The notes under the pieces: generated by a model
Database searches by the model: none
Told to the model about the DNA's origin: nothing
The model's input: the letters and a program-made list of their open reading frames with translations, nothing else
From: Streptomyces diastatochromogenes
GTDB taxonomy: Bacteria; Actinomycetota; Actinomycetes; Streptomycetales; Streptomycetaceae
NCBI RefSeq assembly: GCF_002242805.1
Contig: NZ_MCGQ01000038.1
Location: forward strand, 62,001 to 126,000
Reading direction: 5' to 3'
DNA: 64,000 bases
In this document: piece after piece, positions 24,877 through 48,112 of the stretch
Position numbering within the stretch: the first letter of the stretch is position 1
Layout: the number at the start of each line of letters is the position of its first letter
Program-made: the position numbers and the translations under genes

Positions 24877-25006
24877 TAGTGAGGATGGGGGTGAGGACGG
24901 TCAAGGTGCTTGAAGAGTCGAAAAGATTCGACGGATCCGGTTGAGGAAAAGTCAAGCGCCGCGTATGGGCATTCAAGCCACTTGGCGCTACCTTCCTTCG
25001 CACCAG

Positions 25007-25020
25007 TGGGAGCGATTCCG
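25007..25020. promoter_or_regulatory. Degenerate CebR-like site upstream of GH5
   Basis: TGGGAGCGATTCCG keeps the left half of the CebR box and a weaker right half. It is 49 bp upstream of the GH5 start codon, placed to control the GH5-GH6 promoter. Lower affinity than the perfect site is expected. Confidence 0.7.
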
Positions 25021-25068
25021 TTCAGTCGACGCGTCCGTCACGACGCGCCAAGCTGCAAGGAGTCGCTC

Positions 25069-26544: not shown

Positions 26545-26567
26545 GCCCCGCACAGGACTCTCGGAAG

Positions 26568-26589
26568 CCTCACGGAAGCCTCACGGAAG
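26568..26589. repeat. Tandem 11-bp repeat between GH5 and GH6
   Basis: CCTCACGGAAG occurs twice in tandem (26568-26578 and 26579-26589), with a third partial copy just upstream, in the 61-bp spacer before the GH6 ribosome site. It could influence message structure or stability; no regulator is recognised. Confidence 0.65.
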
Positions 26590-26605
26590 AAGGAAACCCG
26601 CACTC

Positions 26606-28324
26606 ATGAGTCGTACCAGAACCTCACTGCTCGCCGCCCTGGTGCTGGTCGCCGGGGCCTCCGGTGCGGCGCTCACCGCCGCACCGGCCGGCGCCGCCAC
26701 CTCCATCCCCTGCACCGTCGACTACAAGGTGCAGAACCAGTGGGACACCGGCTTCACCGCCGCCGTGACCATCACCAACAACGCGGCCGCCAAGTCGAGT
26801 TGGTCGCTGAAGTGGTCGTACGCCGGGAACCAGAAGGTCACCAGCTACTGGAACACGAAGCTCACCCAGAGCGGCACCGCCGTCACCGCCGGCAACGAGA
26901 CCTACAACGGCACGCTGGCGACCGGCGGTTCGGTCAGCTTCGGCTTCAACGGCTCCTACAGCGGCACCAACGCCGTACCCACCACGTTCACCCTCGACGG
27001 CGTCACCTGCAACGTCGACGACGGCGGCAGCGGCGGCGGGGGCGGAGGAGGCGGCGGGGGCGGCACCGGCACCCGCGTCGACAACCCCTACACGGGCGCC
27101 AAGGTGTACGTGAACCCGGAGTGGTCGGCGAAGGCCGCCGCCGAACCGGGCGGCAGCCGCGTCTCCAACCAGCCCACCGGCGTCTGGCTGGACCGCATCG
27201 CCGCGATCAACGGTGCGGGCGGAGGCATGGGGCTGCGCGCCCACCTGGACGCTGCCCTCGCCCAGAAGGGCAGCGGCGAAGAAGTCGTTCAGCTGGTCGT
27301 CTACGACCTGCCGGGCCGGGACTGCGCGGCACTGGCCTCCAACGGTGAACTCGGCCCCACCGAGATCGACAAGTACAAGACGCAGTTCATCGACCCGATC
27401 GCGACGATCCTGTCCGACCCGAAGTACGCCTCCCTCAGGATCGTCACCACCATCGAGATCGACTCGCTGCCCAACCTCGTCACCAACACCGGCAGCCGCG
27501 CCACCGCCACCGCCAACTGCGACACCATGCTCGCCAACGGCAACTACGTGAAGGGCGTCGGCTACGCCCTCGCCAAGCTCGGCGCCATCCCCAACGTCTA
27601 CAACTACCTCGACGCCGGCCACCACGGCTGGCTCGGCTGGGACGACAACTTCGGCGCGGCCGCCAACGTGTTCAAGCAGGCCGCCACCAGCGAGGGTGCG
27701 ACCGTGGACGACGTCCAGGGCTTCATCACCAACACGGCCAACTACAGCGCCCTGAAGGAGGACAACTTCACCATCAACGACAGCGTCAACGGCACCTCGG
27801 TACGCCAGTCCAAGTGGGTCGACTGGAACCGGTACGCCGACGAGCTGTCCTTCGCCCAGGCCTTCCGCAACCAGCTGGTCTCGGTCGGCTTCAACTCGAA
27901 CATCGGCATGCTGATCGACACCTCCCGCAACGGCTGGGGCGGCACCGCCCGCCCGACCGGACCCGGCCCGAAGACCAGCGTGGACACCTACGTCGACGGC
28001 GGCCGCTACGACCGCCGCATCCACGTCGGCAACTGGTGCAACCAGTCCGGCGCCGGCCTCGGCGAACGCCCCCAGGCCAGCCCGGCCGCCGGGATCGACG
28101 CCTACGTCTGGATGAAGCCCCCGGGCGAGTCCGACGGCTCCAGCAGCGCCATCGCGAACGACGAGGGCAAGGGCTTCGACCGCATGTGCGACCCGACGTA
28201 CACGGGCAACGCGCGCAACAACAACAACATGTCCGGCGCCCTGCCGAACGCCCCGCTGTCCGGACACTGGTTCTCCGCCCAGTTCCAGCAGCTGATGCAG
28301 AACGCGTACCCGCCGCTGCCCTGA
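26606..28324 (+). CDS. Secreted cellobiohydrolase, GH6 with N-terminal CBM2
   Basis: A 572-residue exported GH6 enzyme, exo-acting from the non-reducing end. A signal peptide (1-31), CBM2 (about 33-135), a glycine-only linker (about 140-152, from a GGC/GGG/GGA run near 27022-27069) and a GH6 barrel (about 155-572) are visible. The catalytic signature YDLPGRDCAALASNGE carries the proton donor; YLDAGHHGWLGW and DTSRNGWGG are also typical. Long loops and a length of about 420 residues for the catalytic domain favour the cellobiohydrolase over the endoglucanase type. AGAAGGA precedes the ATG. Confidence 0.94.
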   Translation: MSRTRTSLLAALVLVAGASGAALTAAPAGAATSIPCTVDYKVQNQWDTGFTAAVTITNNAAAKSSWSLKWSYAGNQKVTSYWNTKLTQSGTAVTAGNETYNGTLATGGSVSFGFNGSYSGTNAVPTTFTLDGVTCNVDDGGSGGGGGGGGGGGTGTRVDNPYTGAKVYVNPEWSAKAAAEPGGSRVSNQPTGVWLDRIAAINGAGGGMGLRAHLDAALAQKGSGEEVVQLVVYDLPGRDCAALASNGELGPTEIDKYKTQFIDPIATILSDPKYASLRIVTTIEIDSLPNLVTNTGSRATATANCDTMLANGNYVKGVGYALAKLGAIPNVYNYLDAGHHGWLGWDDNFGAAANVFKQAATSEGATVDDVQGFITNTANYSALKEDNFTINDSVNGTSVRQSKWVDWNRYADELSFAQAFRNQLVSVGFNSNIGMLIDTSRNGWGGTARPTGPGPKTSVDTYVDGGRYDRRIHVGNWCNQSGAGLGERPQASPAAGIDAYVWMKPPGESDGSSSAIANDEGKGFDRMCDPTYTGNARNNNNMSGALPNAPLSGHWFSAQFQQLMQNAYPPLP

Positions 28325-35201: not shown

Positions 35202-35897
35202 TCAGTTGTTGGCGAGGAACTGCTTGGCCAACTGGTCCCCGAGGGAGACGGCCGCGCTGTGGCTCTCGATGGGGGAGACCTTGGAGTTCTTGAACAGGAT
35301 GTAGGTCACGCCGGAGTCGACCCCGCCGGTGGCCGGGTCGGGGTCGATGCCGAGCGCCTTGGCGGTGGCGTACGAGGCCTCACCGATGATCTTCGTGGGG
35401 CCGGTGTCGCCGACAACGGCGTACTCGACCTTGTTGTTGTAGATGACGGCGACGACACCGCCGCCCTTGATGCCGGCACCGGAGTAGTTCCAGATGCTGC
35501 TGGAGCTGGGCACCACGACGTACGGCAGCGACTCGGCCTTCAGGGGCTTGCCGTCGGACTGGTGGAAGGCGGTGTCGTCCTGGTACCAGGGGTCGCGGTT
35601 CTCGTTGCAGTTGGTGGTGCGCTGGCCGTCGCAGTCGATGTCCATGTCGGCCTTCCAGAACACCGCACCGTTCTTGCCGCACACGGGGATCGTGGCCGAG
35701 GTCTCGTCGTCGGTCTTGTACTTGCCGTTCGATATCTGCGAACAGGACGTCACCTTGGAGAGCAGGTCGGACGCGCTGACCGAGCCCTCCTGGGCGGAGG
35801 TGGGTGCGCGGTTGCCGGAGGCGTTGGCGGGCAGCACTCCGGCGGCGAGGAGGGCGGCTCCGGAGGCTGCGGCGAGGGTCAGTGTTCGAAGGCGCAC
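35202..35897 (-). CDS. Secreted chitosanase, family GH75
   Basis: A 231-residue exported endo-chitosanase. A Sec signal (1-27, ending ANASG) precedes the GH75 domain. The family signature FWKADMDIDCDGQRT near residue 80, with an acidic DxDCDG core, and paired cysteines (CSQ, CGKNG, CNENRD) are present. It hydrolyses beta-1,4-glucosamine chains such as chitosan from fungal walls. GTG start at 35897. A 19-bp near-palindrome of the CsnR type lies 17 bp upstream of the start, indicating repression lifted by chitosan oligomers. Confidence 0.9.
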   Translation of the reverse strand: MRLRTLTLAAASGAALLAAGVLPANASGNRAPTSAQEGSVSASDLLSKVTSCSQISNGKYKTDDETSATIPVCGKNGAVFWKADMDIDCDGQRTTNCNENRDPWYQDDTAFHQSDGKPLKAESLPYVVVPSSSSIWNYSGAGIKGGGVVAVIYNNKVEYAVVGDTGPTKIIGEASYATAKALGIDPDPATGGVDSGVTYILFKNSKVSPIESHSAAVSLGDQLAKQFLANN

Positions 35898-35913
35898 TGT
35901 GGGGGACCCTTCT

Positions 35914-35932
35914 GTTAGGAAAGTTTCCTTAC
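35914..35932. promoter_or_regulatory. CsnR-type chitosanase operator
   Basis: GTTAGGAAAGTTTCCTTAC is a 19-bp palindrome with one mismatched pair; the core AGGAAAGTTTCCT (35917-35929) is perfect. From memory it matches the operator recognised by the ROK-family repressor CsnR upstream of streptomycete chitosanase genes. Its position just upstream of the ribosome site fits repression of GH75. Confidence 0.75.
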
Positions 35933-36044
35933 CGGGTGCCGTACAAGGTGGCCCCTCCGGCATGTCCCCGTCAAGTCCTGGCACCGGATGCAGTGCATTG
36001 CCCCCCGGGGAACACTGGTCATGTCGAACTGGGAGGCGATCGTC

Positions 36045-36656
36045 ATGTTCGTACGCACCGTCTATGTGACCGGCGACCCCACGAAGATCGACACGGCCAT
36101 CAGAGCGCTGAACACCGAAGGGCGGGAACTGCTCGAGGAACGGCCGGGCTACCGCGGAGCCGGGGTCTTCGTGGACCGGGATCTCGGCAAGCTGCTGGGC
36201 GTGAGCTGGTGGGAAACGGCCGAGGCGCGGCAGAACAGCGACGAGGTCATGCGCGGCCGCAGGGACGCGCTGCTGGGGCCGTTCGCCGGCACGCTGACGG
36301 TGGAGAACTTCGAGGCGGTGGTGTACCAGCCGCTCCAGCCGCCGCGCATGGGCGGCGGACTGCGTGTCACGCGGGTGGAGTTCGACCCCGCGGACGCCGA
36401 TCTGGTCGCCGAGACCTTCCGGTCGACCGTCCTCCCGCGTCTTGAGACCCTGCCCGGCCTGGCCACGACGGGCCTGCTCATCGACCGCGAACGCGGCACG
36501 GGCCAGGTCGGCACCCTCTTCGTCGACCGCGACTCGATGGTGGTGTCGCGGGCCGGCCAGGCGGCGGCTCGGCACGAGGGCGTGGCCAAAGCGCATGTGA
36601 GCGTCGTCGGCCTGGAGGAGTTCGAGGTCGTGCACACGGACGTGCACGTCGGCTGA
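36045..36656 (+). CDS. Tandem antibiotic-biosynthesis-monooxygenase-like (ABM) protein
   Basis: A 203-residue soluble protein apparently built of two ferredoxin-like alpha+beta repeats: residues about 1-95 (FVRTVYVTGDPTKID..., LLGVSWWETAEARQ) and 105-200 (RVTRVEFDPADAD..., GTLFVDRDSMVVS). This resembles ABM or stress-response dabb domains. It may be a small cofactor-free monooxygenase or a scaffold; no substrate is known. The ATG at 36045 is preferred because GGGAGG lies eight bases upstream; an ATG at 36021 lacks one. Confidence 0.7.
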   Translation: MFVRTVYVTGDPTKIDTAIRALNTEGRELLEERPGYRGAGVFVDRDLGKLLGVSWWETAEARQNSDEVMRGRRDALLGPFAGTLTVENFEAVVYQPLQPPRMGGGLRVTRVEFDPADADLVAETFRSTVLPRLETLPGLATTGLLIDRERGTGQVGTLFVDRDSMVVSRAGQAAARHEGVAKAHVSVVGLEEFEVVHTDVHVG

Positions 36657-36765: not shown

Positions 36766-37602
36766 TCAGCCCATGTCGAAGGTGGCCGGGTCCGGGCCGA
36801 TACGGCGGTCCTCGTTCAGGGCGCTGATCGCCGCGAGGTCCTCGTCGTCCAGGCTGAAGTCGAACACCTCGATGTTCTCCTTGATCCGGGACGGCGTCAC
36901 GGACTTCGGGATCACGATGTTGCCGCGCTGGATGTGCCAGCGCAGCACGACCTGGGCCGGAGTGCGGTTGTGCTTCTGTCCGATGGCGACGATGGCCGGC
37001 ACCTCCAGCAGGCCCTTGCCCTGGCCGAGCGGCGACCAGGCCTCGGTCCTGATGCCCTGCTCCGCGTGGAACTCGCGCGCCGCGCGCTGCTGCAGGTGCG
37101 GGTGCAGCTCGATCTGGTTGACCGCCGGGATGACCGAGGTCTCCTCGATCAGCCGCCGCAGGTGCTCGGGCAGGAAGTTGGACACGCCGATCGCCTTGAC
37201 GCGGCCTTCGGCGTACAGCTTCTCGAACGCCTTGTAGGTGTCGAGGTACTTGTCCCGGGTCGGCAGCGGCCAGTGGATCAGGTACAGGTCCAGATAGTCG
37301 AGACCCAGCTTCTCCAGCGACACGTCGAAAGCGCGCAGCGTGGAGTCGTACCCCTGGTCGCTGTTCCAGAGCTTGGTGGTGACGAAGATGTCCTCACGGG
37401 GCAGGCCGGAGGCGGCGATGGCCTTGCCGGTGCCCGCTTCGTTGCCGTAGATCGCCGCTGTGTCGATGCTGCGGTACCCGGCCTCGAGCGCCGTGCCGAC
37501 GGCCTGCTCGGCCTCGTCGTCCGGCACCTGCCAGACGCCGAAACCCAGCTGGGGCATCTCGACGCCGTTGTTGAGGATGATCGGGGGGACCTTGCTGCTC
37601 AC
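36766..37602 (-). CDS. Aldo-keto reductase (2,5-diketo-gluconate reductase-like)
   Basis: A 278-residue NADPH-dependent TIM-barrel reductase. The catalytic tetrad is visible: Asp and Tyr in SIDTAAIYGNE, Lys in FVTTKLWN and His in YLIHWPLP. The C-terminal IPKSVTPSRIKEN binds the cofactor phosphate. It reduces aldehydes or ketones, probably sugar-derived or methylglyoxal-like. The GTG at 37602 fits family length; in-frame starts further up to 37650 lack conserved sequence. It is divergent from the pqq operon. Confidence 0.9.
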   Translation of the reverse strand: MSSKVPPIILNNGVEMPQLGFGVWQVPDDEAEQAVGTALEAGYRSIDTAAIYGNEAGTGKAIAASGLPREDIFVTTKLWNSDQGYDSTLRAFDVSLEKLGLDYLDLYLIHWPLPTRDKYLDTYKAFEKLYAEGRVKAIGVSNFLPEHLRRLIEETSVIPAVNQIELHPHLQQRAAREFHAEQGIRTEAWSPLGQGKGLLEVPAIVAIGQKHNRTPAQVVLRWHIQRGNIVIPKSVTPSRIKENIEVFDFSLDDEDLAAISALNEDRRIGPDPATFDMG

Positions 37603-37919
37603 GAGCTTCTTGATCCTTCGGTTGTCGACAGGTGGTACTCCCATCGTCAACGATCACGCGCCACCTTGCATTCCTGACCGCGGAATCCGCATCAACTGAC
37701 CGGTGAGTCAGTCTCCGGAGTCGCAGATTGGCCGGAAACGCATCCGACGTTATCGGTCCGGACCATTGACCGCGGCCCTTCGTCCCGGGACTCTGTATCG
37801 CGCCACCGGACGTGTCGCTGAACCCGGTGCACACATGTGAACGGCCTCTGACCATGGCCTCCGTCTGCCTCCGTCTGCCCTCTGAGAACCCCCACCCTCA
37901 GGAAAGCGGGTACGCGCAC
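37603..37919. promoter_or_regulatory. 317-bp divergent promoter region between AKR and pqqA
   Basis: No gene is seen here. The region contains an inverted repeat ACTGAC (37695-37700) / GTCAGT (37707-37712) around CGGTGA, of the size bound by TetR-like dimers. A perfect 10-bp palindrome GGTCCGGACC lies at 37755-37764. The base composition is less GC-rich than the flanks, as expected for promoters. No CebR box is present, so regulation differs from that of the cellulases. The region presumably drives the seven-gene pqq/pectin operon rightward and the reductase leftward. Confidence 0.55.
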
Positions 37920-38087
37920 ATGAACAAAACCCTGCCCCCGACCCCTCGTACGACCCTCCCGGACCCGAAGACATCGGATGAAAAGGTCTGGGAAAGCCCC
38001 GGCTACCAGGTCGTGGAGACCGCCCTCGAAGTGACCGCCTACGCGCTCACCGACCGCCGCGCACCCGAGCCGCCCCGGGCCTCATGA
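37920..38087 (+). CDS. pqqA: PQQ precursor peptide PqqA
   Basis: A 55-residue ribosomal peptide whose Glu and Tyr side chains become pyrroloquinoline quinone. The conserved core LEVTAYALTDR (residues 36-46) matches the family pattern LEVTLYISNR, placing the cross-linked residues at Glu37 and Tyr41. The peptide is longer than the usual 22-35 residues, with a Pro-rich leader and about 14 residues after Tyr41. The ATG is preceded by AGGAAAG with long spacing. It overlaps pqqC by 4 bp. The context pqqA-C-D-E makes the call firm despite the short length. Confidence 0.9.
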   Translation: MNKTLPPTPRTTLPDPKTSDEKVWESPGYQVVETALEVTAYALTDRRAPEPPRAS

Positions 38088-38857
38088 GTACGACGGTCCC
38101 GAGTACGGCCGTCCCGCGCATCGCGGACGCCTCGACCGTCCCTCGCCCTGACGCCGCCGTGGCCGCCTGGTCGCCCGCCGAGTTCACCGACCGGCTGCGC
38201 GCCGTCACCGCGGCCCGCTACCACGACCGGCACCCCTTCAACCTGCGGATGCACCGCGGCGAGCTGACCCCCGCCGAGCTGCGCCGCTGGATCGCCGCAC
38301 GCTTCCACTACCAGCGGCACATCCCCGTCAAGGACGCCCTGATCCTCGCGGGGCTCGACCGGCCCGAGCAGCGCCGCCTCTGGCTGCGGCGGATCCGCGA
38401 CCACGACGGCACGGGGGACGGCGGCCCCGGGAGCGAGGGCGGGATCGAGCGCTGGCTGCGGCTCGGCGAGGCGGCCGGGCTCAGCCGCGAGGAGCTGTGG
38501 GACACCTCCCGGGTGCCGCCCGGGGTGCGGTTCGCGGTCGAGGGGTACGTCACCTTCTGCCGGCTGCGCCCCACGCTGGACGCGGTCGCCGCCTCCCTGA
38601 CCGAGCTGTCCGCCCCGGACCTGATGCGCACCCGCATCGCCGCCTTCGAACGCCACTACCCGTGGATCGACCCGGCCGGTCTCGCCTACTTCCGCACCCG
38701 TGTCACCCAGGGCGCCCGCGACGGCGAGGAGGCCCTCGCCCTGGTCCTCGCCTCCGCCCGCACCCGTGAGCAGCAGGAACGGGCGGTGGCCGCGCTCACC
38801 TTCAAGTGCGAGGTGCTGTGGGCGCTGCTGGACGCGGTGGGCGGGGGCACTTCGTGA
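38084..38857 (+). CDS. pqqC: PQQ synthase PqqC
   Basis: A 257-residue cofactor-free oxidase that performs the final ring closure and eight-electron oxidation to PQQ. Typical all-helical PqqC features include HPFNLRMHRGELTPAELRRWIA near residue 48, FHYQRHIPVKDALIL near 75, RRIRDHDG near 105 and FKCEVLWALLDAV at the C-terminus. His and Arg residues of the active site lie in these segments. The order A-C-D-E here skips the usual pqqB. It overlaps pqqA (ATGA) and pqqD (GTGA). Confidence 0.95.
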   Translation: MSTTVPSTAVPRIADASTVPRPDAAVAAWSPAEFTDRLRAVTAARYHDRHPFNLRMHRGELTPAELRRWIAARFHYQRHIPVKDALILAGLDRPEQRRLWLRRIRDHDGTGDGGPGSEGGIERWLRLGEAAGLSREELWDTSRVPPGVRFAVEGYVTFCRLRPTLDAVAASLTELSAPDLMRTRIAAFERHYPWIDPAGLAYFRTRVTQGARDGEEALALVLASARTREQQERAVAALTFKCEVLWALLDAVGGGTS

Positions 38858-39177
38858 CCTCCTTACGTCCCGCAGCCCGCCAGAACGCGGCCGGCTGGGC
38901 TCCCGCCCTCGTCCCGAACGTGACCGCCTGGCGTCCCGCCCTCGCCCGGGGCGTGCTGCCGCGGCACGACCCGGTGCGGGACGCGGATCTGTTGCTGCTG
39001 CCGGAGCGTGTGGTCGTCCTGCACGGCCGCGCGGGCGCCGTCCTCGCGCGGTGCGACGGCAGCCGGACCGTGGCCGGCATCGTCGCCGAGCTGTCCGCCG
39101 AGTATCCCGGCGCACCCGTCGCCGCCGAAGTCCCGGACTTCCTGGCCGGGTTGCGGAAGGAGGGCTGGCTGACATGA
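38854..39177 (+). CDS. pqqD: PqqA-binding chaperone PqqD
   Basis: A 107-residue RiPP recognition element that presents PqqA to PqqE. The winged-helix PqqD domain covers residues about 28-107 (LLLLPERVVVLHGRAGAVL..., DGSRTVAGIVAEL, DFLAGLRKEGWL). The GTG start overlaps the pqqC stop (GTGA). The fourth codon (38863-38865) is TTA: VTSL encoded GTG-ACC-TCC-TTA. Placement right after initiation and at a coupling junction would make bldA tRNA supply decisive for pqqD and probably for downstream genes. It overlaps pqqE by 4 bp. Confidence 0.94.
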   Translation: MTSLRPAARQNAAGWAPALVPNVTAWRPALARGVLPRHDPVRDADLLLLPERVVVLHGRAGAVLARCDGSRTVAGIVAELSAEYPGAPVAAEVPDFLAGLRKEGWLT

Positions 39178-40340
39178 CGACCGTCGCTCCACCGTGGGCC
39201 CTGCTCGCCGAACTCACCCACGCCTGCCCGCTGCGCTGCGGATACTGCTCCAACCCTGTCGAACTGGTCGGTCGGTCAGCGGAGTTGACCACGGAACAGT
39301 GGGCCGGGGTGTTCGCACAGGCGGGCGCCCTCGGGGTCGTCCACACCCATCTGTCCGGCGGTGAACCGCTGCTGCGCCGCGACCTGCCCGACCTGGTGGC
39401 CGCCGCCGACGCGGCCGGCCTGTACACCCAGCTCGTCACCAGCGGGGTGGGCCTGGGCGAGCGGCGGCTGGCCGGGCTGGTCGAGTCCGGTCTTCGCAGC
39501 GTCCAGCTGTCCGTGCAGCACGCGGACCCCGCCGTCGCCGAACGCATCGCGGGCGCACGGTCGTTCGCGGCGAAGGAGCGTGCGGCCCGGCTGATCCGCG
39601 AGGCGGGACTGCCGCTCGGGCTCAACGCCGTCCTGCACCGCGGCAACCTCGACGCCCTGGACGAGCTGATCCGGCTCGCCGTGGCCTGGGGCGCTGACCG
39701 GCTCGAACTGGCCCACACCCAGTACCACGGCTGGGCGCTGCGCAACCGTGCCGCCCTGCTGCCCACACCCGGCCAGGTCGAACGGGCCCGCTCGACGATC
39801 GCCCGCTGGCGTGAACGACTGGGCGATTACCTGGAGTTGGTGTGGGTGGCCCCCGATCTGCTGGACGCCACCGCGAAGCCGTGCATGGGCGGCTGGGGCC
39901 GCATCTCGCTCACCGTCGCTCCCGACGGCACGGTCCTGCCCTGTCCGGCCGCGGGCAGTCTGCCGGGCCTGGACCCGCCGAACGTCCGAGAGCATCAACT
40001 GGGTGTGATCTGGCGGGAGTCGAAGGCCTTCAACGCCTTCCGGGGCGAGTCCTGGATGCCCGATCCCTGCCGTGGCTGCGCCCTGCGCGCCACCGACCAC
40101 GGCGGCTGCCGCTGCCAGGCCTACGCCCTCACCGGCGACCCCGCCCGCACCGACCCCGCCTGCCGGCACGCCCCTGACCACCACGTCGTACGCGACCTCG
40201 TGCATGACCTCGTGGGCGGGCCCAGGCGGCTCGCGTACGCCTACCGAGAAGCCCCGCGAGAAGCCCCGCAAGCCCAGCGAGAAGTCCCGCGAGACCTCCG
40301 GCGAGGCATCCGAGACCTCCAGCGAGAGGAAGGACCATGA
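39174..40340 (+). CDS. pqqE: Radical SAM cross-linking enzyme PqqE
   Basis: A 388-residue radical SAM-SPASM protein that forms the Glu-Tyr carbon-carbon bond in PqqA while PqqD holds the substrate. CPLRCGYCSNP (CX3CX2C) is near residue 19, followed by HLSGGEPLLR. Auxiliary-cluster cysteines are in CMGGWGR, VLPCPAAG, CRGCALR and GGCRCQAY. The last 30 residues are an unusual Arg/Glu/Pro repeat tail encoded by decaying 12-bp repeats (40246-40320). The stop overlaps the GH105 start (ATGA at 40337-40340), physically tying PQQ synthesis to the pectinase genes. Confidence 0.95.
   Translation: MTTVAPPWALLAELTHACPLRCGYCSNPVELVGRSAELTTEQWAGVFAQAGALGVVHTHLSGGEPLLRRDLPDLVAAADAAGLYTQLVTSGVGLGERRLAGLVESGLRSVQLSVQHADPAVAERIAGARSFAAKERAARLIREAGLPLGLNAVLHRGNLDALDELIRLAVAWGADRLELAHTQYHGWALRNRAALLPTPGQVERARSTIARWRERLGDYLELVWVAPDLLDATAKPCMGGWGRISLTVAPDGTVLPCPAAGSLPGLDPPNVREHQLGVIWRESKAFNAFRGESWMPDPCRGCALRATDHGGCRCQAYALTGDPARTDPACRHAPDHHVVRDLVHDLVGGPRRLAYAYREAPREAPQAQREVPRDLRRGIRDLQREEGP
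40246..40320 (+). repeat. Decaying 12-bp tandem repeat in the pqqE 3' end
   Basis: Units GAGAAGCCCCGC (40246-40257 and 40258-40269), then shortened or mutated copies (GAGAAGTCCCGC, GAGACCTCCGGC, GAGACCTCC). They encode a REAPREAP-like charged tail on PqqE and lie directly before the GH105 ribosome site. Slippage here could change the tail length in 4-residue steps without breaking the frame. Confidence 0.75.
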
Positions 40341-41521
40341 GACGCCGACCCCTGTGCGCGGCCCTGACGGCACTCGCGCTCACCACCGCCGGCCTGGCCG
40401 CACTCCCCGCGGCCGTACCCCCGGCGGCCGCCGCCCCCGCCCTGCCCCGGCCGGCCGCCGCCCCCGACTGGTCCACGGCCGTGGTCGACTCCACCATGGC
40501 CCGCTACACGCCGGCCGGCATCGGCGGCTGGTCGTACCCGGTCGGGCTCTACCTCTACGGCCAGTACCTCACCTACCGCCGCACCCACGACCCGCGCTAC
40601 CTCACCTACATCAAGACCTACGTCGACCGCTTCGTGAAGAGCGACGGCTCCATCGACCAGTCCTTCAACAGCCTGGACAGCATGCAGGCCGGCCGCCTCC
40701 TGGTGATCCTGCACCACGAGACCGGTCAGGACCGCTACCGCAGGGCGGCGAAGAAGATCCGCGACCGCCTCACCACCTACCCGCGCACGAGCGACGGCGG
40801 ATTCTGGCACGCGGACAACAGCAGCCGCGCCCACCAACTCTGGGCGGACGGCGTCTACATGGTGAACCCGTTCCTCGTCGAGTACGGCAGGGAGTTCGGC
40901 GACAGCGCGTACACGAACGACGAGGCGGCCAGGCAGCTCGCCGTCTACGGCAGCCATCTCCAAGTCGGCAACGGCCTGTTGAGGCACGCCTACGACGAGT
41001 CGAGAACCGCGAGCTGGGCCGACCCGCAGACCGGGCTCGCCCCCGAGCACTGGTGCCGCGCGGTCGGCTGGTACGCGATGGCGATCGTGAACGTCCTCGA
41101 CGCGATCCCGGAGAACCAGCCGCGACGGCCCCAACTCCTCGGCATCTTCCGGAACTTGGCGGCAGGTCTGGAGCGGTACCAGGACCCGGCCGGCGGCCGC
41201 TGGTTCCAGGTCATGGACAAGGGGGCGAGGAACGACGACTGGACCGAGACGTCCTGCTCCAGCATGTTCACCTACGCCCTCTCGCGCGGTGTGCAGCAGG
41301 GCTATCTCGATCCGCACTACGCGGCCGTCGCCCGGCGCGGCTACGAAGGCGTGCTGGCGAAGATCTCGGTCGGCGCCGACGGCCGCACGAACCTCGCCGA
41401 CATCTCCGTCGGCACGAACGTCGGCGACTACGCGTACTACGCCGCCCGCACCCGGGCCGTCAACGACTTCCACGGCCTGGGCGCCTTCCTGATCATGAAC
41501 GAGCAACTGCGAGGTGAATAG
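40337..41521 (+). CDS. Secreted unsaturated rhamnogalacturonyl hydrolase, GH105
   Basis: A 394-residue exported alpha/alpha6-barrel enzyme (GH88/GH105 fold, YteR/YesR-like). It removes the unsaturated galacturonosyl residue from products of rhamnogalacturonan lyase. A Sec signal spans 1-32 (ending AAAA). Typical segments are GGWSYPVGLYLYGQYL near 55, LWADGVYMVNPFLVEY near 172 and HWCRAVGWYAMAIVNVLDAIP near 238. AGGAAGGA precedes the ATG. Most characterised GH105 enzymes are intracellular, so a clear signal peptide is notable. Its substrate is made by the PL11 lyase at 15983. Confidence 0.9.
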   Translation: MRRRPLCAALTALALTTAGLAALPAAVPPAAAAPALPRPAAAPDWSTAVVDSTMARYTPAGIGGWSYPVGLYLYGQYLTYRRTHDPRYLTYIKTYVDRFVKSDGSIDQSFNSLDSMQAGRLLVILHHETGQDRYRRAAKKIRDRLTTYPRTSDGGFWHADNSSRAHQLWADGVYMVNPFLVEYGREFGDSAYTNDEAARQLAVYGSHLQVGNGLLRHAYDESRTASWADPQTGLAPEHWCRAVGWYAMAIVNVLDAIPENQPRRPQLLGIFRNLAAGLERYQDPAGGRWFQVMDKGARNDDWTETSCSSMFTYALSRGVQQGYLDPHYAAVARRGYEGVLAKISVGADGRTNLADISVGTNVGDYAYYAARTRAVNDFHGLGAFLIMNEQLRGE

Positions 41522-41525
41522 TGTC

Positions 41526-44500
41526 ATGAGCACGTCCAGAAGAGGGGTGCTCGGCGCCACGCCTTCGAGACACCCGAAGTGTTCGAGAACCCCCCACGGA
41601 AGAGGTGCGGCGGCGATCGTCCTGTGCGTCCTCGCCGTCGTCCTCGGCCTCACCCACCCCGCCGCCCTCGCGGCCCCCCAGCCGTCGCCCCACGCCGCCG
41701 TCTTCGACGTACGCGACTACGGCGCCAAGGGTGACGGCTCCAGCAACGACACCCCGGCCGTCAACAAGGCCATCACCGCGGCCAGTTCGGCCGGCGGAGG
41801 CACCGTCCGCTTCCCGTCCGGCACCTACAAGTCCAAGAACACCATCCACATGAAGAGCAACGTGACGCTCCAGGTCGACACGGGTGCCACGATCCAGGGC
41901 TCGTCCGCGGACACCTATGACCCGCCCGAGTCCAACGCCTACGACAAGTACCAGGACTACGGGCACAGCCACTTCCACAACGCGATGATCTACGGCGACC
42001 GGCTCACGAACATCGGCTTCGTCGGCGGCGGGGTCATCGACGGCGCCGGCAACCTGATCACCGGCAACCCGAAGCCGGGCGAGGCCGACAAGATCCTCTC
42101 GCTGACCCGCTGCGACGGCCTGCGCGTCGGCGACGGCCTCACCCTCCGACGCGGCGGCCACTTCGCGGCCCTCGTCAACGGCTGCAAGAACGTGACGTCG
42201 GACCACCTGACCATCGACACCGCGAGCGACCGCGACGGCTGGAACATCATCTCCACCACCAACGTCACGGTGACCCACGCGCGCATCAAGGCGAACGACG
42301 ACGCACTCGTCTTCAAGAGCGACTACGCCCTCGGCGCCGAGCTCCCCAACGGCCATGTCCGGGTGAGCGATGCGTACCTCTCGGCGAGGTGCTGCAATGC
42401 CCTGATGTTCGGCTCCGAGACCTGCGGCGACTTCTCGGACTACCAGTTCGAGAAGATCCGCATCGAGGGCGCCGACAAGTCCGGGCTCGGCATGGTCTCC
42501 ATGGACGGCGCGAAGATCTCCGACGTCCACTACCGCGACATCACCATGACCGACGTCCACTCGCCGATCATGCAGAAGATCGGCACGCGCAAGCGCTGCG
42601 GCAACAGCCCGGGCGTCGGCTCGATCAGCGACGTGACGTACGACGACATCACCGCCACCGGCACCAGCCCGTCCTTCAGCCCGACCCTGTGGGGCGAGAC
42701 CGGCCACCGGATCAGCGGCGTCACCTTCGACCACGTCGACATCACCGTGCCCGGCGGCAACGGCACCCTGTCCACCGCGGTGCCGAGCAACGACCCGAAC
42801 GACTACAACCCGAAGAGCATCGGCACCCGGCCGGCCTACGGCTGGTACCTGCACAACGCCGACAGCGTGCGGTTCACCGACAGCTCGGTGAGGTTCGCCG
42901 CGGACGACGGCCGTCCCGCGGTCATCGCCGACGCGGCGAGCGACATCCGCTTCACCCGCTTCACCGCACAGCGCGGCGGCGACTCCCCGCATGACGCCGG
43001 CTTCCAGAACGTCACCGGCTACTGTCTGACGGACAGCCACACCACCTCCGGCGGCGCCCTGCGGATCTCGTCCACCGGATCCACCGAGAACTGCGGTACG
43101 GCGGCCAGGCCCCTGGATCTGGAGAACCCCCGCCAGGACTTCCTCCGGGGCTCGGTCGGCGGCCTCTTCCTGCACTGGGGCCTGCGCACCGCCCCCGCCC
43201 ACACCAGCTGCGGCGCGTGGGAGAACGACGTCACCGGCGGCGGCTGGACACCGGACTACTGGGTGAACGAAGCCCGCAAACTGCATACGCAATACCTTGT
43301 ACTGGCTACCTTCCACAGTCGACTGGGCTACGCCCGCCCCTGGCCCTCGAAGATCCCCGGCTCCTGCTCCACCCAGCGGGACTTCCTCGGCGAGCTGATC
43401 GCCGCCGCCAAGGCCAAGGGCATGAAGGTCATCCTCTACATGACCGACGACCCCCAGTGGCACGCCGAGGGCGGCCACGAGTGGCTCGACTCGGCCGCCT
43501 ACTCCGCCTACAAGGGCAAGAACGTCGACCTGACCACCCGCGACGGCTTCGGGCAGTTCAGCTACGACAACTTCTTCGAGGTGATGGACCGCTACCCCGA
43601 CCTCGGCGGCTTCTGGATCGACAACGACAACGCGTACTGGGAGAGCCACGACCTCTACGCGCAGATCTATGCCAAGCGCCCCCACTACACGCTCAGCAAC
43701 AACAACGAAGACACGCCGATCATGGACATGATCAGCAACGAGCAGAAGACCGGCATGACGCCCGCATACGACTATCCGCAGGCTGTCTACACCGCCCAGC
43801 CCCGCCTGACCGAGGCCGACTTCAAACTCCCCTCGACCGGCGCCTGGTGGTACGACGGCTCCGACCCGTCCGTCGACCGTAAGCTCACGCTCGGCCGCCT
43901 CGTCACCGACGCCGGCTCCTCGGTCAAGTCGCTGATGGCCGAAACCGCCCAGGTCAACGGCAAGTTCCCGGCCAACCAGGCCGCCTTCAACAACTTCGCC
44001 GACACCTACCTCGACACCGTCTGGGAGTCCCTGCACGGAACCGAGGGCGGCGGCTACATGTACGGCGGCCTCAAGCCCGGCTTCTGGAACGACGGCGCCC
44101 ACGGCGTGACGACGATCAGCAGGGCGGACCCGAACCGCCAGTACATCCACGTCCTGACCCCGCCCAGCACCGGCACCCTGCGCATCCGCGACAACGGCTA
44201 CAGGATCGCGTCCGTCTCCAACCTCCGTACGGGCGCGGCGGTTTCGTGGTCGCAGGCCGGTGGCGTGCTGACGCTGACCGGTCTCGGCTCCTGGGACCCG
44301 TACGACACCGTCTTCAAGGTCACGACCGTCGGCCGCCAGGGAATCGCCACCGGCGTCGAGGTCACCGCGAGCGCCTCCGCGAGCGGCCACGCGGGCCAGG
44401 CCGCCGGAGACGGCGACCACCTCACCTACTGGGACAACAACAAGACCCTGCCCGTCAACCTCACCTTCGACCTCGGTGCGCCGAAGAAGGTGCAGTACAT

Positions 44501-46085
44501 CGGCCTCAACCAGCGCGAGGACTCCGTCGCCTACGCCCGCTCCGCCACCGAGCAGTCCGCCCGCATCAAGGACTACAAGGTGTTCCTGAGCGATGACGGC
44601 ACCACCTGGGGCAGCCCCGTGAAGACCGGGCAGCTCCCCAGCCGGCGGGGCATGCAGGGCATCGACCTCACCTCCGCGCACGCCCGCTACGTACGCCTGG
44701 AGGTCGACACCACCTGGGCCGCGTCGACCGACACCACCCGCTACCGGCGGCTGCGGATCGACGAGGCGTGGATCGGCACCGCGTACGCGACGCCGGCGCC
44801 TGTCACCGTCGAGTCGGACAACGGCCAGTCCCTGCGCCCCGCCATGGGCTGGAGCAGCTGGAGCTTCGTGCGCCGCCGGCCGACCGAGGCCAAGATCAAG
44901 GCGCAGGCGGACGCACTGGTGGCGAGCGGTCTCAAGGACCACGGGTTCGTGTACGTCAACCTCGACGACTTCTGGCAGAAGTGCGACTCCAACGGCTTCG
45001 TCGTCGACTCCTACGGCCGCTGGGCCGTGGACACCGCCAAGTTCCCGTCCGGGATCAGGGCGCTCGCGGACTACATCCACTCCAAGGGGCTGAAGTTCGG
45101 CTTCTACGTCACCCCGGGCATCGCCAAGAACGCGGTCACCGCGAATACGCCGATCGAAGGGACTCCGTACCACGCGAAGGACATTGCGGACACCTCGAAG
45201 ACGGAGAAGAACTACAACTGCAAGAACATGTACTACATCGACTACTCCAAGCCGGGCGCGCAGGAGTTCGTGAACTCGTGGGCGAAGCAGTTCGCGTCCT
45301 GGGGAGTCGACTACCTGAAGATCGACGGCGTGGGCAGCCAGGACATCCCCGACGTCCAGGCCTGGGACAAGGCCCTGCGCGCCACCGGGCGGCCCCTCAC
45401 CTTCGCCCTCTCCAACAACCTGCCGATCGCGAACGCCGCCACCTGGCGGCAGCTGGCCAACAGCTGGCGCACCCAGGGCGATGTGGAGTGCTACTGCGGG
45501 TCGGGCGCGAACGGCAGCGGCTACCCGCTCACGGACTGGTCCCACGTCTCCGCCCGCTTCACCTCGGCCGCCAACTGGCAGCCGTATGCCGGCCCCGGCG
45601 GCTGGAACGACCTCGACTCGCTGGAGATCGGCAACGGTGACCAGGTGGGCCTGACCGCCGACCAGCGGCGCTCGCACTTCACCCTGTGGGCGATGGCAGG
45701 CGCACCCCTGCTGCTCGGCACCGACCTCACCCACCTCGACCCCGTCGACAAGGCGATGCTCACCAACGACCGGCTGACCGGGGTCGACCAGGACGGGGTC
45801 GCGGCGAAACGGGTTGTGAACAGTGGGGTCAAGCAGGTCTGGAGCAAACAGGAGAACAGCGGCGACTACGTGGTCGCGCTGTTCAACACCGGTACGTCCG
45901 ACAACGCCACGGTCACCGTGAACTGGTCGCAGGTGGGTTTCACCGGCTCCGGTGACGTCACGGACCTCTGGTCCGGCTCTCACAAGGGTGTGATCACGGA
46001 CTCGTACAGCGCAACGCTGCGGCCGGGCGAAACACGGCTGATCCGTGTGAACCCAGTCAACAGCGCGCTGAGGGGAGAATCATGA
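41526..46085 (+). CDS. Multidomain pectinolytic hydrolase: GH28 / GH29-like / CBM32 / GH27
   Basis: A 1519-residue exported protein. A signal anchor spans about 28-50. A right-handed beta-helix of GH28 type covers 60-540 (VFDVRDYGAKGDG, ANDDALVFKSD), but the usual catalytic His segment is replaced by NALMFGSETC. A GH29-like barrel covers 545-935 (GLFLHWGL, YLVLATFHSRLGY, candidate nucleophile Asp in GFWIDND). An F5/8C (CBM32) module covers 940-1085. A GH27 barrel covers 1100-1519 (MGWSSWSF, VNLDDFW, YLKIDG with Asp1267 as nucleophile, RTQGDVE as acid/base). It probably trims galacturonan or rhamnogalacturonan backbones, fucosyl-like and alpha-galactosyl or beta-arabinopyranosyl side groups. 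ATG 41526 is 4 bp after GH105; GTG 41514 is possible. Confidence 0.88.
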   Translation: MSTSRRGVLGATPSRHPKCSRTPHGRGAAAIVLCVLAVVLGLTHPAALAAPQPSPHAAVFDVRDYGAKGDGSSNDTPAVNKAITAASSAGGGTVRFPSGTYKSKNTIHMKSNVTLQVDTGATIQGSSADTYDPPESNAYDKYQDYGHSHFHNAMIYGDRLTNIGFVGGGVIDGAGNLITGNPKPGEADKILSLTRCDGLRVGDGLTLRRGGHFAALVNGCKNVTSDHLTIDTASDRDGWNIISTTNVTVTHARIKANDDALVFKSDYALGAELPNGHVRVSDAYLSARCCNALMFGSETCGDFSDYQFEKIRIEGADKSGLGMVSMDGAKISDVHYRDITMTDVHSPIMQKIGTRKRCGNSPGVGSISDVTYDDITATGTSPSFSPTLWGETGHRISGVTFDHVDITVPGGNGTLSTAVPSNDPNDYNPKSIGTRPAYGWYLHNADSVRFTDSSVRFAADDGRPAVIADAASDIRFTRFTAQRGGDSPHDAGFQNVTGYCLTDSHTTSGGALRISSTGSTENCGTAARPLDLENPRQDFLRGSVGGLFLHWGLRTAPAHTSCGAWENDVTGGGWTPDYWVNEARKLHTQYLVLATFHSRLGYARPWPSKIPGSCSTQRDFLGELIAAAKAKGMKVILYMTDDPQWHAEGGHEWLDSAAYSAYKGKNVDLTTRDGFGQFSYDNFFEVMDRYPDLGGFWIDNDNAYWESHDLYAQIYAKRPHYTLSNNNEDTPIMDMISNEQKTGMTPAYDYPQAVYTAQPRLTEADFKLPSTGAWWYDGSDPSVDRKLTLGRLVTDAGSSVKSLMAETAQVNGKFPANQAAFNNFADTYLDTVWESLHGTEGGGYMYGGLKPGFWNDGAHGVTTISRADPNRQYIHVLTPPSTGTLRIRDNGYRIASVSNLRTGAAVSWSQAGGVLTLTGLGSWDPYDTVFKVTTVGRQGIATGVEVTASASASGHAGQAAGDGDHLTYWDNNKTLPVNLTFDLGAPKKVQYIGLNQREDSVAYARSATEQSARIKDYKVFLSDDGTTWGSPVKTGQLPSRRGMQGIDLTSAHARYVRLEVDTTWAASTDTTRYRRLRIDEAWIGTAYATPAPVTVESDNGQSLRPAMGWSSWSFVRRRPTEAKIKAQADALVASGLKDHGFVYVNLDDFWQKCDSNGFVVDSYGRWAVDTAKFPSGIRALADYIHSKGLKFGFYVTPGIAKNAVTANTPIEGTPYHAKDIADTSKTEKNYNCKNMYYIDYSKPGAQEFVNSWAKQFASWGVDYLKIDGVGSQDIPDVQAWDKALRATGRPLTFALSNNLPIANAATWRQLANSWRTQGDVECYCGSGANGSGYPLTDWSHVSARFTSAANWQPYAGPGGWNDLDSLEIGNGDQVGLTADQRRSHFTLWAMAGAPLLLGTDLTHLDPVDKAMLTNDRLTGVDQDGVAAKRVVNSGVKQVWSKQENSGDYVVALFNTGTSDNATVTVNWSQVGFTGSGDVTDLWSGSHKGVITDSYSATLRPGETRLIRVNPVNSALRGES

Positions 46086-48112
46086 AACGCGACAGAGTTC
46101 TCGTCTGGGGCCTCTCCCTGGCCCTGGCCGCACCACTGACCGGCCTGACCGGCGGCGTCGCCCGCGCGGCCACCGACTACCAGGCCGAGGACGCCCATAT
46201 CTCCCAGGGCACCGTGGCCACCAACCACACCGGCTACACGGGCACCGGCTTCGTCGACTACACCAACATCAAGGGCTCGTACGTGGAGTTCACGGTGAAC
46301 GCGGCCTCCGCGGGCACCGCAGCGGTCACCCTCCGCTACGCCAACGGCACCTCCACCGACCGGCCCATGGACATCTCCGTGGGCGGCACGGTCGTCGCGC
46401 CCGCCGTCTCCTTCCCGGCCACCGCCGACTGGAACACCTGGGCCACCAGGACCCTCACCGTGCCGCTCACCGCCGGATCCGACAAGATCCGCGCGACCGC
46501 CACCACGGCCGACGGCGGACCCAACCTGGACCGCATCAGCGTCGACGCCGCCACCGACACCCAGGCCCCCACCCGCCCCGGCCGGCCCGGCTGCTCCGAC
46601 ATCGGCGAGAACGGCCTCACCCTCGGCTGGGGCGCGTCCACCGACAATGTGGGCGTGACGGCGTACGACATCTACGAGCACGGCAACAAGATCGGTGAGG
46701 CGCCCGGGAGTTCGACCAGCAAGACACTGACCGGGCTCACCCCGAACACCACCTACAACCTCACCGTCATCGCCCGGGACGCGGCCGGCAACACCTCGCA
46801 GGCCAGCCCCGTCGTCGACTGCACGACCAAGCCCAGCTCCGACACCACACCGCCGACCGCCCCCGGCATACTGTCCACAGCCGACATCACATCGAATACA
46901 GTCGACCTCGGCTGGGGCGCGTCGACGGACGACCGCGCGGTCGTCGGCTACGACATCCGCAGCGACACCACCGTCTACAAGACCGTCACCAGCGGTACGT
47001 CGACCACCCTCACCGGTCTCGCCTGCAACAGCCCGTACACGCTGAACGTCGTCGCCCGCGACGCCGCCGGGAACGTCTCGCAGCCGAGCAACACCGTCAC
47101 CTTCACCACCAAGGCCTGCGCCACCGACGGCGGTGTCCCGTCCTCGATCGCCACGCTCTCCAGCGGCTGGACGATCCCCTGGGGCACCTACTGGCTGCCC
47201 GACGGCCAGTCCGCGCTGGTCACCGAGCGGGACGACTTCCGGGTCTGGAAACTGACCAAGAGCGGCACTCGGACCCAGGTGGGCACGGTCCCCAACGCCG
47301 TGACCACCAACGGCGAGGGCGGTCTGCTCGGAGTCGCCGTCGACCCCAAGTGGGACACCAACCACTACGTCTACTTCATGCACACCGCGTCCGAAGGCAA
47401 CCGGGTCGTCCGCATGACGTACGACGGCACCCAGCTCACCGACTACAAGATCCTGCTCCAGGGCATCAAGAAGAACCGCTACCACAACGGCGGACGCCTC
47501 GCCTTCGGCCCCGACGGCTATCTGTACGTCTCCACCGGCGAGGCCCAGACGCCCGACCTCGCGCAGGACAAGAACTCCCTCAACGGCAAGATCCTGCGCA
47601 TGACGACCGACGGAAAGCCGGCCCCCGGCAACCCCTTCGGCACCTACGTCTACTCCCTGGGCCACCGCAACCCGCAGGGCCTCGCCTTCGACCGGAACGG
47701 GCGCCTGTGGGAAGCCGAGTTCGGCAACAGCTCCAAGGACGAGCTGAACCTCATCAAGCCCGGCGCCAACTACGGCTGGCCGACCTGCGAAGGCAGCTGC
47801 TCCGTCGCCGGGATGACCAACCCCAAGGCCACCTGGAACGTCTCCGAGGCCTCGCCCAGCGGCATCGCCGTCGTCCGCAACGTGATCTACATGGCCTCCC
47901 TGCGCGGCGAGCGCCTGTGGCGCATCCCGATCAACGGCGACAACGAGAGCGTCGGCACGCCGACCGCGTACTACGTCGGTACCTACGGTCGACTGCGTAC
48001 CGTCACCAAGGTGCCGGGCGCCGACCAGTTGTGGCTGTCCACCACCAACTGCGACAACAACGGAGGAGCGGCGGACGGATCCGACAAGATCTTCAAGGTG
48101 ACGATCAGCTGA
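46082..48112 (+). CDS. Secreted PQQ-dependent aldose dehydrogenase with CBM35 and two Fn3 domains
   Basis: A 676-residue exported oxidoreductase. A signal peptide (1-30), CBM35 (about 32-155, YQAEDAHISQG...GFVDYTNIKGSYVEF), two fibronectin III domains (about 165-252 and 258-345) and a six-bladed soluble glucose/aldose dehydrogenase propeller (about 352-676) are visible. The propeller motifs RYHNGGRLAFGPDG (His as base), GHRNPQGLAF and DELNLIKPGANYGWP match PQQ-binding enzymes of the YliI/Asd type. It oxidises aldoses to lactones. CBM35 modules include ones that bind uronic or unsaturated uronic acids, fitting the pectin context. The start overlaps the preceding stop (ATGA), so the cofactor genes and the apoenzyme share one message. 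Confidence 0.92.
   Translation: MKRDRVLVWGLSLALAAPLTGLTGGVARAATDYQAEDAHISQGTVATNHTGYTGTGFVDYTNIKGSYVEFTVNAASAGTAAVTLRYANGTSTDRPMDISVGGTVVAPAVSFPATADWNTWATRTLTVPLTAGSDKIRATATTADGGPNLDRISVDAATDTQAPTRPGRPGCSDIGENGLTLGWGASTDNVGVTAYDIYEHGNKIGEAPGSSTSKTLTGLTPNTTYNLTVIARDAAGNTSQASPVVDCTTKPSSDTTPPTAPGILSTADITSNTVDLGWGASTDDRAVVGYDIRSDTTVYKTVTSGTSTTLTGLACNSPYTLNVVARDAAGNVSQPSNTVTFTTKACATDGGVPSSIATLSSGWTIPWGTYWLPDGQSALVTERDDFRVWKLTKSGTRTQVGTVPNAVTTNGEGGLLGVAVDPKWDTNHYVYFMHTASEGNRVVRMTYDGTQLTDYKILLQGIKKNRYHNGGRLAFGPDGYLYVSTGEAQTPDLAQDKNSLNGKILRMTTDGKPAPGNPFGTYVYSLGHRNPQGLAFDRNGRLWEAEFGNSSKDELNLIKPGANYGWPTCEGSCSVAGMTNPKATWNVSEASPSGIAVVRNVIYMASLRGERLWRIPINGDNESVGTPTAYYVGTYGRLRTVTKVPGADQLWLSTTNCDNNGGAADGSDKIFKVTIS

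Follow-up and report, generated by a model that had tools for sequence, protein, structure and literature searches.

Comparison with described systems

The six-blade propeller of the glucose/sorbosone dehydrogenase (GSDH) family is represented by 3das, 2ism, 3a9g, 2g8s and soluble glucose dehydrogenase (sGDH), and the solved chains of the aldose sugar dehydrogenase (Asd)/sGDH group are lone propellers. The protein analysed here, encoded at 46082-48112 on the forward strand of a 64,000-nucleotide stretch of Streptomyces diastatochromogenes DNA (the window; contig NZ_MCGQ01000038.1, positions 62,001 to 126,000), has the same propeller fold and shares the motifs HNGGR, GHRNPQG, NYGWP and GRLR with 3das, 2ism (HSGGR) and 3a9g, but adds a family 35 carbohydrate-binding module (CBM35), two fibronectin type III (Fn3) domains and, in its operon, genes for pyrroloquinoline quinone (PQQ) biosynthesis. 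The interpretation that we hold, with slightly better than even confidence, is that it would be a secreted PQQ-type aldose dehydrogenase, kept by its CBM35 on uronic-acid ends or chains and produced from an operon that also makes the cofactor and uronide hydrolases.

Joining a carbohydrate-binding module to a PQQ dehydrogenase is an idea already known from fungal AA12 enzymes and from a CBM5+CBM10 GSDH of Teredinibacter. Fungal CcPDH (AA8-AA12-CBM1) is likewise a secreted PQQ pyranose dehydrogenase with such a module (PMC6881789, PMC4133262), but it is a eukaryotic enzyme, from a domain of life in which no PQQ synthesis is reported, and it belongs to AA12, has 15-20% identity to known bacterial quinoproteins (PMC6881789), and carries a cellulose-directed CBM1 and its own cytochrome. 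The preliminary description of this locus had proposed a bacterial parallel in concept to these fungal enzymes, and at that level the parallel is supported. The Teredinibacter turnerae protein (E7_MBN_03865 / TERTU_2567) is likewise bacterial, secreted and CBM-bearing; it differs in its CBM families and Gram-negative host, and the excerpted account describes no pqq operon (PMC12055684). Chi-CBM35 of Amycolatopsis CsxA and Rhe-CBM35 of C. thermocellum share 58-59% and 44-45% identity with the window module, have the same fold and hold uronate ligands in crystals, but the former sits on an exo-glucosaminidase and the latter on an esterase, whereas the window CBM35 sits on an oxidoreductase. Operons joining pqq genes to a glucose dehydrogenase resemble the window operon in pqqC, pqqD and pqqE, all above their model cut-offs here, and in loci L086 and L087 pqqC-E adjoin a CBM-less GSDH; the window operon differs in that pqqB stands apart, polysaccharide hydrolases lie between pqqE and the dehydrogenase, and the pqq genes have been lost repeatedly among relatives.

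As far as searches of open-licence texts reach, four elements are new: an enzyme of this type tethered by a CBM35, a pqq operon combined with hydrolases of wall polymers, a chitin/uronide context that is conserved, and pqq loss that recurs. Among open-licence full texts, none was found to describe an operon that combines PQQ biosynthesis genes with hydrolases of wall polymers and a PQQ dehydrogenase tethered to uronate. Searches for CBM35 with sorbosone dehydrogenase returned only the Teredinibacter paper, those for a Streptomyces PQQ-dependent sugar dehydrogenase with pectin returned none, and no match listed for PQQ with rhamnogalacturonan was on topic by title.

Domain architecture and PQQ site of the dehydrogenase

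The dehydrogenase comprises the following features.

46082..48112, + strand: CBM35-dehydrogenase open reading frame, 676 aa, ATG start
46082..46168, + strand: signal-peptide-like region, aa 1-29, read from the sequence (pLDDT <50 at aa 1-28)
46172..46540, + strand: CBM35, uronate type, aa 31-153 (Pfam, PDB sequence search, Foldseek, conserved residues)
46559..47110, + strand: two Fn3 domains, approximately aa 160-343 (PF00041 in two stretches; 1k85 match at 257-342)
47111..48109, + strand: PQQ-type aldose (glucose/sorbosone) dehydrogenase propeller, aa 344-676 (PF07995; 3das; His468, Arg529, Asn530, Arg637, Arg639)

Pfam, PDB sequence search, AlphaFold2 and Foldseek bear out the order CBM35-Fn3-Fn3-PQQ propeller that had been read directly from the sequence, behind a signal-like N-terminus read from the sequence, and the proposal of a PQQ-type dehydrogenase with a secretion-like N-terminus is supported. 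The GSDH model PF07995 matches aa 365-656 with 235.4 bits against a cut-off of 25 (E 1.4e-69), and PF00041 matches two stretches (E 3e-19). The AlphaFold2 model, built with 31 natural sequences, has a mean pLDDT of 83.5 and a pTM of 0.59, with low confidence at aa 1-28 and 568-579, so the mutual arrangement of the domains is left unfixed by the model.

The best PDB match of the propeller by sequence is 3das, the S. coelicolor aldose dehydrogenase (E 1e-92), and Foldseek aligns the modelled propeller to the same entry, 'PQQ-bound form of Aldose Sugar Dehydrogenase', with a TM (target) of 0.90. No AA12 chain occurs among the 54 PDB sequence matches listed or the top 50 fold matches, the best of which are Asd/sGDH; AA12 membership was rejected on these best matches, and the protein is assigned by sequence and fold to the GSDH/Asd family, with a uronate-type CBM35. 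Conservation was assessed over 80 named loci, taken from 358 candidates of a species-genome scan. His468, Arg472, Arg529, Asn530 and Tyr564-Pro567 are kept in all 80, and Arg637/639 in 79, the exception being a gap in one frameshifted locus; equivalence was taken from alignments to 3das/2ism/3a9g. Of these, a His base (His468), an Arg-Asn pair (Arg529, Asn530) and an Arg pair (Arg637/639) are the residues expected at the PQQ site; contacts of such residues with PQQ are partly documented in PMC6881789. The expected PQQ contacts, by which the preliminary description had proposed to judge the propeller, are present as judged by sequence and fold. The protein is accordingly best described as a putative secreted PQQ-type aldose dehydrogenase, with aldose oxidation and the sugar concerned predicted from its family.

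An orthologue with at least 73% identity over the whole or nearly the whole length is present in 29 of 295 Streptomyces genomes, the source genome included, and the architecture is therefore no chance product. These carriers exclude GSDH-only matches and the 48-51% identical long forms in G149, G164, G054, G284 and G030, and second orthologue matches within a carrier were ignored. In one carrier, G176, the match begins at residue 153 and lacks the CBM35; together with L141 (S. cellulosae) and L144 (S. violaceoruber NRRL S-981), it constitutes a set of same-locus orthologues without CBM35, which are natural deletion variants.

Ligand prediction for the CBM35

The module scores 46.6 bits to CBM_6 (cut-off 28.9), 28.2 to CBM_35 PF16990 (28) and 27.2 to CBM_35_2 PF18099 (23). 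Its best PDB match is 2vzp, the CBM35 of CsxA, with E 3e-40 within the whole protein and 5e-42 when searched alone, and the next distinct proteins in the latter search are 2w47/2w1w, then 5x7o, 2w46/2w87 and 2w3j. The entries 2w47, 2w87 and 2w3j are identified in PMC9843283 as Rhe-, Xyl- and Pel-CBM35, respectively. Foldseek places the modelled module on 2vzr, 'CBM35 ... in complex with glucuronic acid', with an rmsd of 0.6 A and 59% identity, and on 2w47, 'CBM35 in complex with delta-4,5-anhydrogalacturonic acid', with a TM (target) of 0.93.

The markers of the uronate subtype, as given in PMC9843283, are a Trp in region A, an Asn in region C, a His in D2, and an Asn with an Arg patch in region E. 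All are present in the window module (Trp117/120, Asn148, His49, Asn88 and Arg94, with regions assigned by us from the 2vzp alignment). Trp117, Trp120, Asn148, Asn88 and Arg94 are kept in all 78 loci with a CBM35 match and His49 in 77, while Tyr52 is variable (Tyr in 67 of 78); one best CBM35 was counted per locus, which in multi-CBM35 loci is possibly that of a neighbour. The earlier view that the CBM35 is of the uronate kind is consistent with its nearest solved relatives, whose crystals contain glucuronate or 4,5-unsaturated galacturonate, and the predicted ligand is glucuronate or an unsaturated uronate. The 4,5-unsaturated residue is identical whether it derives from glucuronate or galacturonate, so the module need not discriminate between the two origins.

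Two or more CBM35 modules are found at 9 of the 55 loci from Streptomyces and at 23 of the remaining 25, partly as two copies in the dehydrogenase itself and partly on hydrolases. CBM35-bearing neighbours include GH28, GH27, GH8 and GH18-like proteins (L059), GH75 (L163), and GH29-like, GH27 and GH5 proteins (L137), with copies reaching 11 at L137. The enzymes of the set seem to share the module as a common targeting label.

Organization of the operon

The dehydrogenase is the last gene of a same-strand operon with the order pqqA-pqqC-pqqD-pqqE-GH105-(GH28/GH29-like/F5_8C/GH27)-CBM35-dehydrogenase, flanked by a divergent reductase gene.

36766..37650, - strand: aldo/keto reductase, DkgA-like, divergent operon flank (PF00248; DkgA model 359.9 bits, under the cut-off of 425)
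37754..37771, + strand: promoter element CGGTCCGGACCATTGACC upstream of pqqA, like chitinase-promoter (dre-like) sites (alignment of 35 rows)
37920..38087, + strand: pqqA, PQQ precursor peptide, 55 aa, EVTAY core (TIGR02107 16.4 bits, under the cut-off of 20; assigned by motif, position and retention in relatives)
38084..38857, + strand: pqqC, PQQ synthase (TIGR02111 265.7 bits, cut-off 240)
38854..39177, + strand: pqqD, PqqA chaperone (TIGR03859 68.9 bits, cut-off 46)
39174..40340, + strand: pqqE, radical SAM PqqA cyclase (TIGR02109 476 bits, cut-off 381.35)
40337..41521, + strand: GH105/GH88-type unsaturated uronyl hydrolase, YteR-like (PF07470 E 3e-92; YteR 1nc5 E 9e-77)
41514..46085 (alternative ATG 41526), + strand: fusion GH28 - GH29-like - F5/8C - GH27, 1523 aa (Pfam, PDB)

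At five of the six junctions, the stop codon of one gene and the start codon of the next overlap within four bases; at the sixth, GH105 and the fusion overlap by eight bases (GTG start) or are separated by four (ATG). The operon is thus predicted to unite cofactor synthesis, uronide hydrolases and a tethered dehydrogenase. Its PQQ biosynthesis genes had been overlooked in the preliminary description. In the PDB alignment, GH105 keeps the Asp that is replaced by Asn in 2gh4. The operon contains no pqqB; the same genome has two, at C44:77997 and C23:183862, of which the former belongs to a second cluster with GSDH, pqqC, pqqD and pqqE. The latter may serve the window operon. It (G000:C23:183862-184746, L051) ends a 687-aa open frame in a stretch where no other pqq gene was found.

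The fusion components GH28, GH29-like, F5/8C and GH27 are separate genes in many relatives. Read from its ATG, the fusion begins MSTSRRGVLGA, much like the lyase of its relatives (MSTSRWGTARRAVLGA in L053); deletion of a lyase gene may have left its first codons behind. The DkgA-like reductase flanks the operon at 34 of 55 Streptomyces loci and also the CBM-less pqq-GSDH loci L086 and L087; it could handle aldose oxidation products or reflect mere synteny.

Promoter element

CATTGAC is present in all 35 aligned rows (the window and 34 named loci), and the palindrome GTCC[AG]GACCATTGAC (GTCC[AG]GACC) in 21 of them. The DNA around the element persists even where the pqq genes are lost. With two mismatches allowed, the source genome of 10.5 Mb has three copies besides that of the operon. 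The first lies immediately upstream of a GH18 chitinase and carries TTGGTCCGAACCATT; this sequence and the operon element resemble the DasR-bound chiD site of S. coelicolor, aatggtccgaaccatt (PMC4398421). The second, at G000:C47:18807-18824 (L170), lies between a divergent alginate-lyase-family gene (3nfv E 2e-64) and a permease gene, and the third is inside a LacI-type regulator gene. The DasR (dre) site is A(G/C)TGGTCTAGACCA(G/C)T; the element has a GGTCCGGACCA core with another centre, near the lower-scoring chiD site. In addition, TGAACTATGTTCA occurs near the L170 copy and TGAACnnnGTTCA is similarly placed after the element in several pqq loci, a possible second operator. Sharing of the element with the orphan pqqB was rejected, no match being found near C23:183862.

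Distribution and loss of the PQQ genes

The named loci span at least 12 genera: Streptomyces, Kitasatospora, Lentzea, Sphaerisporangium, Microtetraspora, Micromonospora, Dactylosporangium, Hamadaea, Fodinicola (frameshifted), Kribbella, Actinomadura and Nonomuraea; one Streptosporangiaceae member and one actinomycete metagenome-assembled genome are also included. Among the 29 Streptomyces carriers, pqqC is present in 14 and pqqE in the same 14, and neither occurs in the other 15, whose PQQ use would therefore depend on outside PQQ. In 11 of the 29, pqqC and the dehydrogenase are no more than 15 kb apart (G127: partial pqqC, below the cut-off), where uniform placement would give approximately 0.07. 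Four of the 15 (G182, G274, G067, G083) still have pqqB. Some genus-survey pqqC matches in the G243, G032, G141, G284 and G053 rows cross an in-frame stop, probably just past their end. Within locus flanks of up to 10 kb, beyond which upstream pqq genes can be missed, a local pqqC or pqqE occurs at 17 of the 55 loci from Streptomyces and at none of the remaining 25.

At pqq-less loci, promoter sequence survives between the reductase gene and GH105, in some with pqq wreckage. G274 retains a pqqA with EVTGC in place of EVTAY and a 125-base pqqE piece, G083 a pqqA with an in-frame stop, and G011 a pqqA start that runs into a hydrolase signal peptide. Shorter scraps in G182, G067 and G252 are weak as protein matches and lie at the same site by DNA match; in G252, pqqC and pqqE are located elsewhere in the genome. 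On a tree of 56 dehydrogenase-domain DNAs (the window, 53 named loci and two CBM-less outgroups, with nine rows of unknown pqq state uncounted), the local pqq state changes at least eight times, or at least five if starred branches alone are trusted. The tree count does not by itself separate gain from loss; where wreckage exists, the wreckage decides. For loci with pqqA wreckage, late pqq gain elsewhere was rejected, since the remains lie at the same site. Several other pqq-less loci keep promoter DNA only, and for these the genes may instead have been gained in the others.

The absence of pqqC and pqqE from 15 carriers would also fit a propeller that is PQQ-free or dying in pqq-less lineages, with PQQ not the working cofactor everywhere. 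This we consider improbable: propeller dN/dS is 0.07-0.21 in five pqq-less groups compared with 0.13-0.16 in two pqq groups (seven groups of 3-5 loci each, chosen by us from the tree), the PQQ-site residues are retained across the 80 loci except for the gap noted above, and scavenging of environmental PQQ is described as established and common in Gram-negatives (PMC12124388). These sequences are most simply explained if the cofactor genes were lost several times while purifying selection maintained the enzyme. The plain form at L086 and L087 (reductase, pqqC-E and CBM-less GSDH) suggests the origin of the modular form, the direction of change being presumed.

Partner enzymes and target polymer

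Among the 80 named loci, neighbours include a PF14099 lyase (57), a GH29-like protein (53), GH105 (52), GH27 (46), GH28 (42), an exochitinase-like GH18 (40), GH8 (19) and GH75 (18). At one common threshold, 65 loci have a uronide enzyme, 59 a chitin/chitosan-type enzyme and 49 both; at the same threshold, none of 36 control stretches of 20 kb, evenly spaced choices from four Streptomyces carriers, holds any partner class. The GH8 neighbour is closest to 5xd0, 'Glucanase' (E 1e-96), followed by 7cju, 'Glucanase | chitosanase', and 1v5c, 'chitosanase' (E 2e-71), and the GH18-like neighbour matches 9buf, 'Exochitinase 1' (E 1e-48), and scores 17 bits to the Pfam GH18 model. An exochitinase-like GH18 also lies near two CBM-less GSDH genes, the pqq-linked L086 (71% identity) and the paralogue L197 on contig C27 of the source genome (41%).

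A uronate-rich fungal wall, that is, a Mucorales-type glycuronan with chitosan, is given about an even chance of being the target and fits the evidence somewhat better than pectin because of GH8, GH75, the exochitinase-like GH18, the PF14099 lyase, the CsxA-like CBM35 and the promoter. Mucorales wall glycuronan is described as containing Fuc, Man, Gal and GlcA at 5:1:1:6, held to a glucosamine polymer (PMC6433966). This composition matches the enzymes: lyase and GH105 to uronate, GH29-like to fucose, GH27 to galactose, and GH8/GH75/GH18 to chitosan and chitin. The preliminary description had instead placed the dehydrogenase at pectin breakdown sites, where lyases of pectin or rhamnogalacturonan would create the unsaturated galacturonate ends to which the CBM35 anchors it; extended to the operon, this reading would have it degrade rhamnogalacturonan I (RG-I). 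A plant rhamnogalacturonan target is possible but rather doubtful. GH105 is closest to YteR, which acts on RG-I; the operon GH28 is closest to the rhamnogalacturonidase model BT4146 and that of L166 to an alpha-galacturonidase model, both below cut-off; and the second nearest CBM is the Rhe-CBM35 of an RG acetyl esterase (named so in PMC9843283). A PL11 lyase lies within 40 kb (20-35 kb) in 16 of 29 carriers, but it is near just 4 of 11 pqq-linked operons, and the chitin/chitosan-type enzymes have no known role in pectin, nor does the chitinase-like promoter element suit it. The specific tie to the PL11 lyase at 15983 did not hold: that gene is 30 kb away and outside the operon, is unmatched in 10 of 29 carriers (E 1e-150) and is absent from all 80 named loci within flanks of up to 10 kb, and it was rejected as an operon partner in favour of regional synteny only. 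The pectin breakdown site is one of at least three readings, and relatives also carry chitin/chitosan-type partners.

The third reading, considered unlikely, is that the producer's own wall supplies the uronic acids to which the CBM35 binds, so that a secreted Gram-positive quinoprotein remains close to its cell and thereby to the respiratory chain and the source of PQQ. PMC6097792, citing Montanier 2009, reports that the CBM35 of CsxA, the nearest relative, binds bacterial cell-wall uronic acids and fixes CsxA to the cell that produces it, but several relatives bear the same CBM35 on neighbouring hydrolases, up to the 11 copies of L137, which substrate targeting suits as well or better. The favoured reading, a tethered PQQ dehydrogenase acting on a uronate-rich fungal wall, has a series of observations weighing against it. 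GH28 does not easily fit the glycuronan enzyme list; both it and a YteR-like GH105 belong to families of the pectin type, and the window also holds PL11 and the cellulases GH48/GH6/GH5. Glucanases also occur within GH8, the PF14099 lyase has 0 PDB matches by search, and the partner search of the 80 loci finds neither the relatives' lyase nor their exochitinase in the window operon (L052). Five of the 80 loci have no partner class, two (L141, L144) have no CBM35 match, and the controls are all from Streptomyces, leaving the non-Streptomyces loci without a counterpart. The PQQ genes pqqC and pqqE are missing from more than half of the carriers (15/29), and no acceptor gene is seen in the operon, the genome's four AA10 lytic polysaccharide monooxygenase (LPMO) genes being on other contigs. 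The centre of the promoter element departs from the dre consensus, and the element alone is weak evidence, because at three mismatches it gives 19 matches against 9 for a reversed control; its neighbouring genes would carry the argument.

Proposed mechanism and significance

A working scheme can be built on the anatomy, gene identities, conservation and pqq loss described above, in which regulation, PQQ loading, ligand, sugar, acceptor and target are conjectural. The operon would be switched on together with chitin and polyuronide genes. PqqA would be processed by PqqD/PqqE and PqqC, with PqqB supplied from C44 or C23, and PQQ would exit the cell and be loaded by the secreted propeller outside. 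The CBM35 would then dock on glucuronate or 4,5-unsaturated uronate laid bare by the neighbouring lyase and hydrolases, and the propeller would oxidise freed aldose ends at C1 to lactones, passing electrons to an external acceptor, possibly AA10 LPMOs. Fungal CcPDH reportedly drives LPMOs (PMC5960967). In pqq-less strains, the enzyme would rely on PQQ from neighbours.

A broader and more speculative reading, advanced tentatively, is that of an actinobacterial, chitin/polyuronide-regulated oxidative module against uronate-rich, Mucorales-type walls, with on-demand PQQ from the same operon, loading outside the cell, oxidation of wall sugars and electron supply to LPMOs. Because the holoenzyme would be assembled outside the cell, PQQ would become a public good, its genes being repeatedly dropped by Streptomyces lineages and neighbours' PQQ used. 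Two questions become open to test in tractable soil bacteria: which electron donors serve bacterial LPMOs outside the cell, and whether Gram-positives share PQQ as a common good. For the latter, relatives that keep the same selected dehydrogenase but differ in having pqqCDE constitute natural matched pairs.

Flanking genes

Beyond the reductase lies one further gene of a partner class.

35202..36647, - strand: GH75 chitosanase-family gene (PF07335 E 3e-22), the class with a homologue in 18 of the 80 loci

Further upstream, at 19128-28324 and approximately 10-20 kb from the operon, the window carries CBM2-bearing GH48, GH6 and GH5 genes together with a CBM2-BNR/Asp-box protein.

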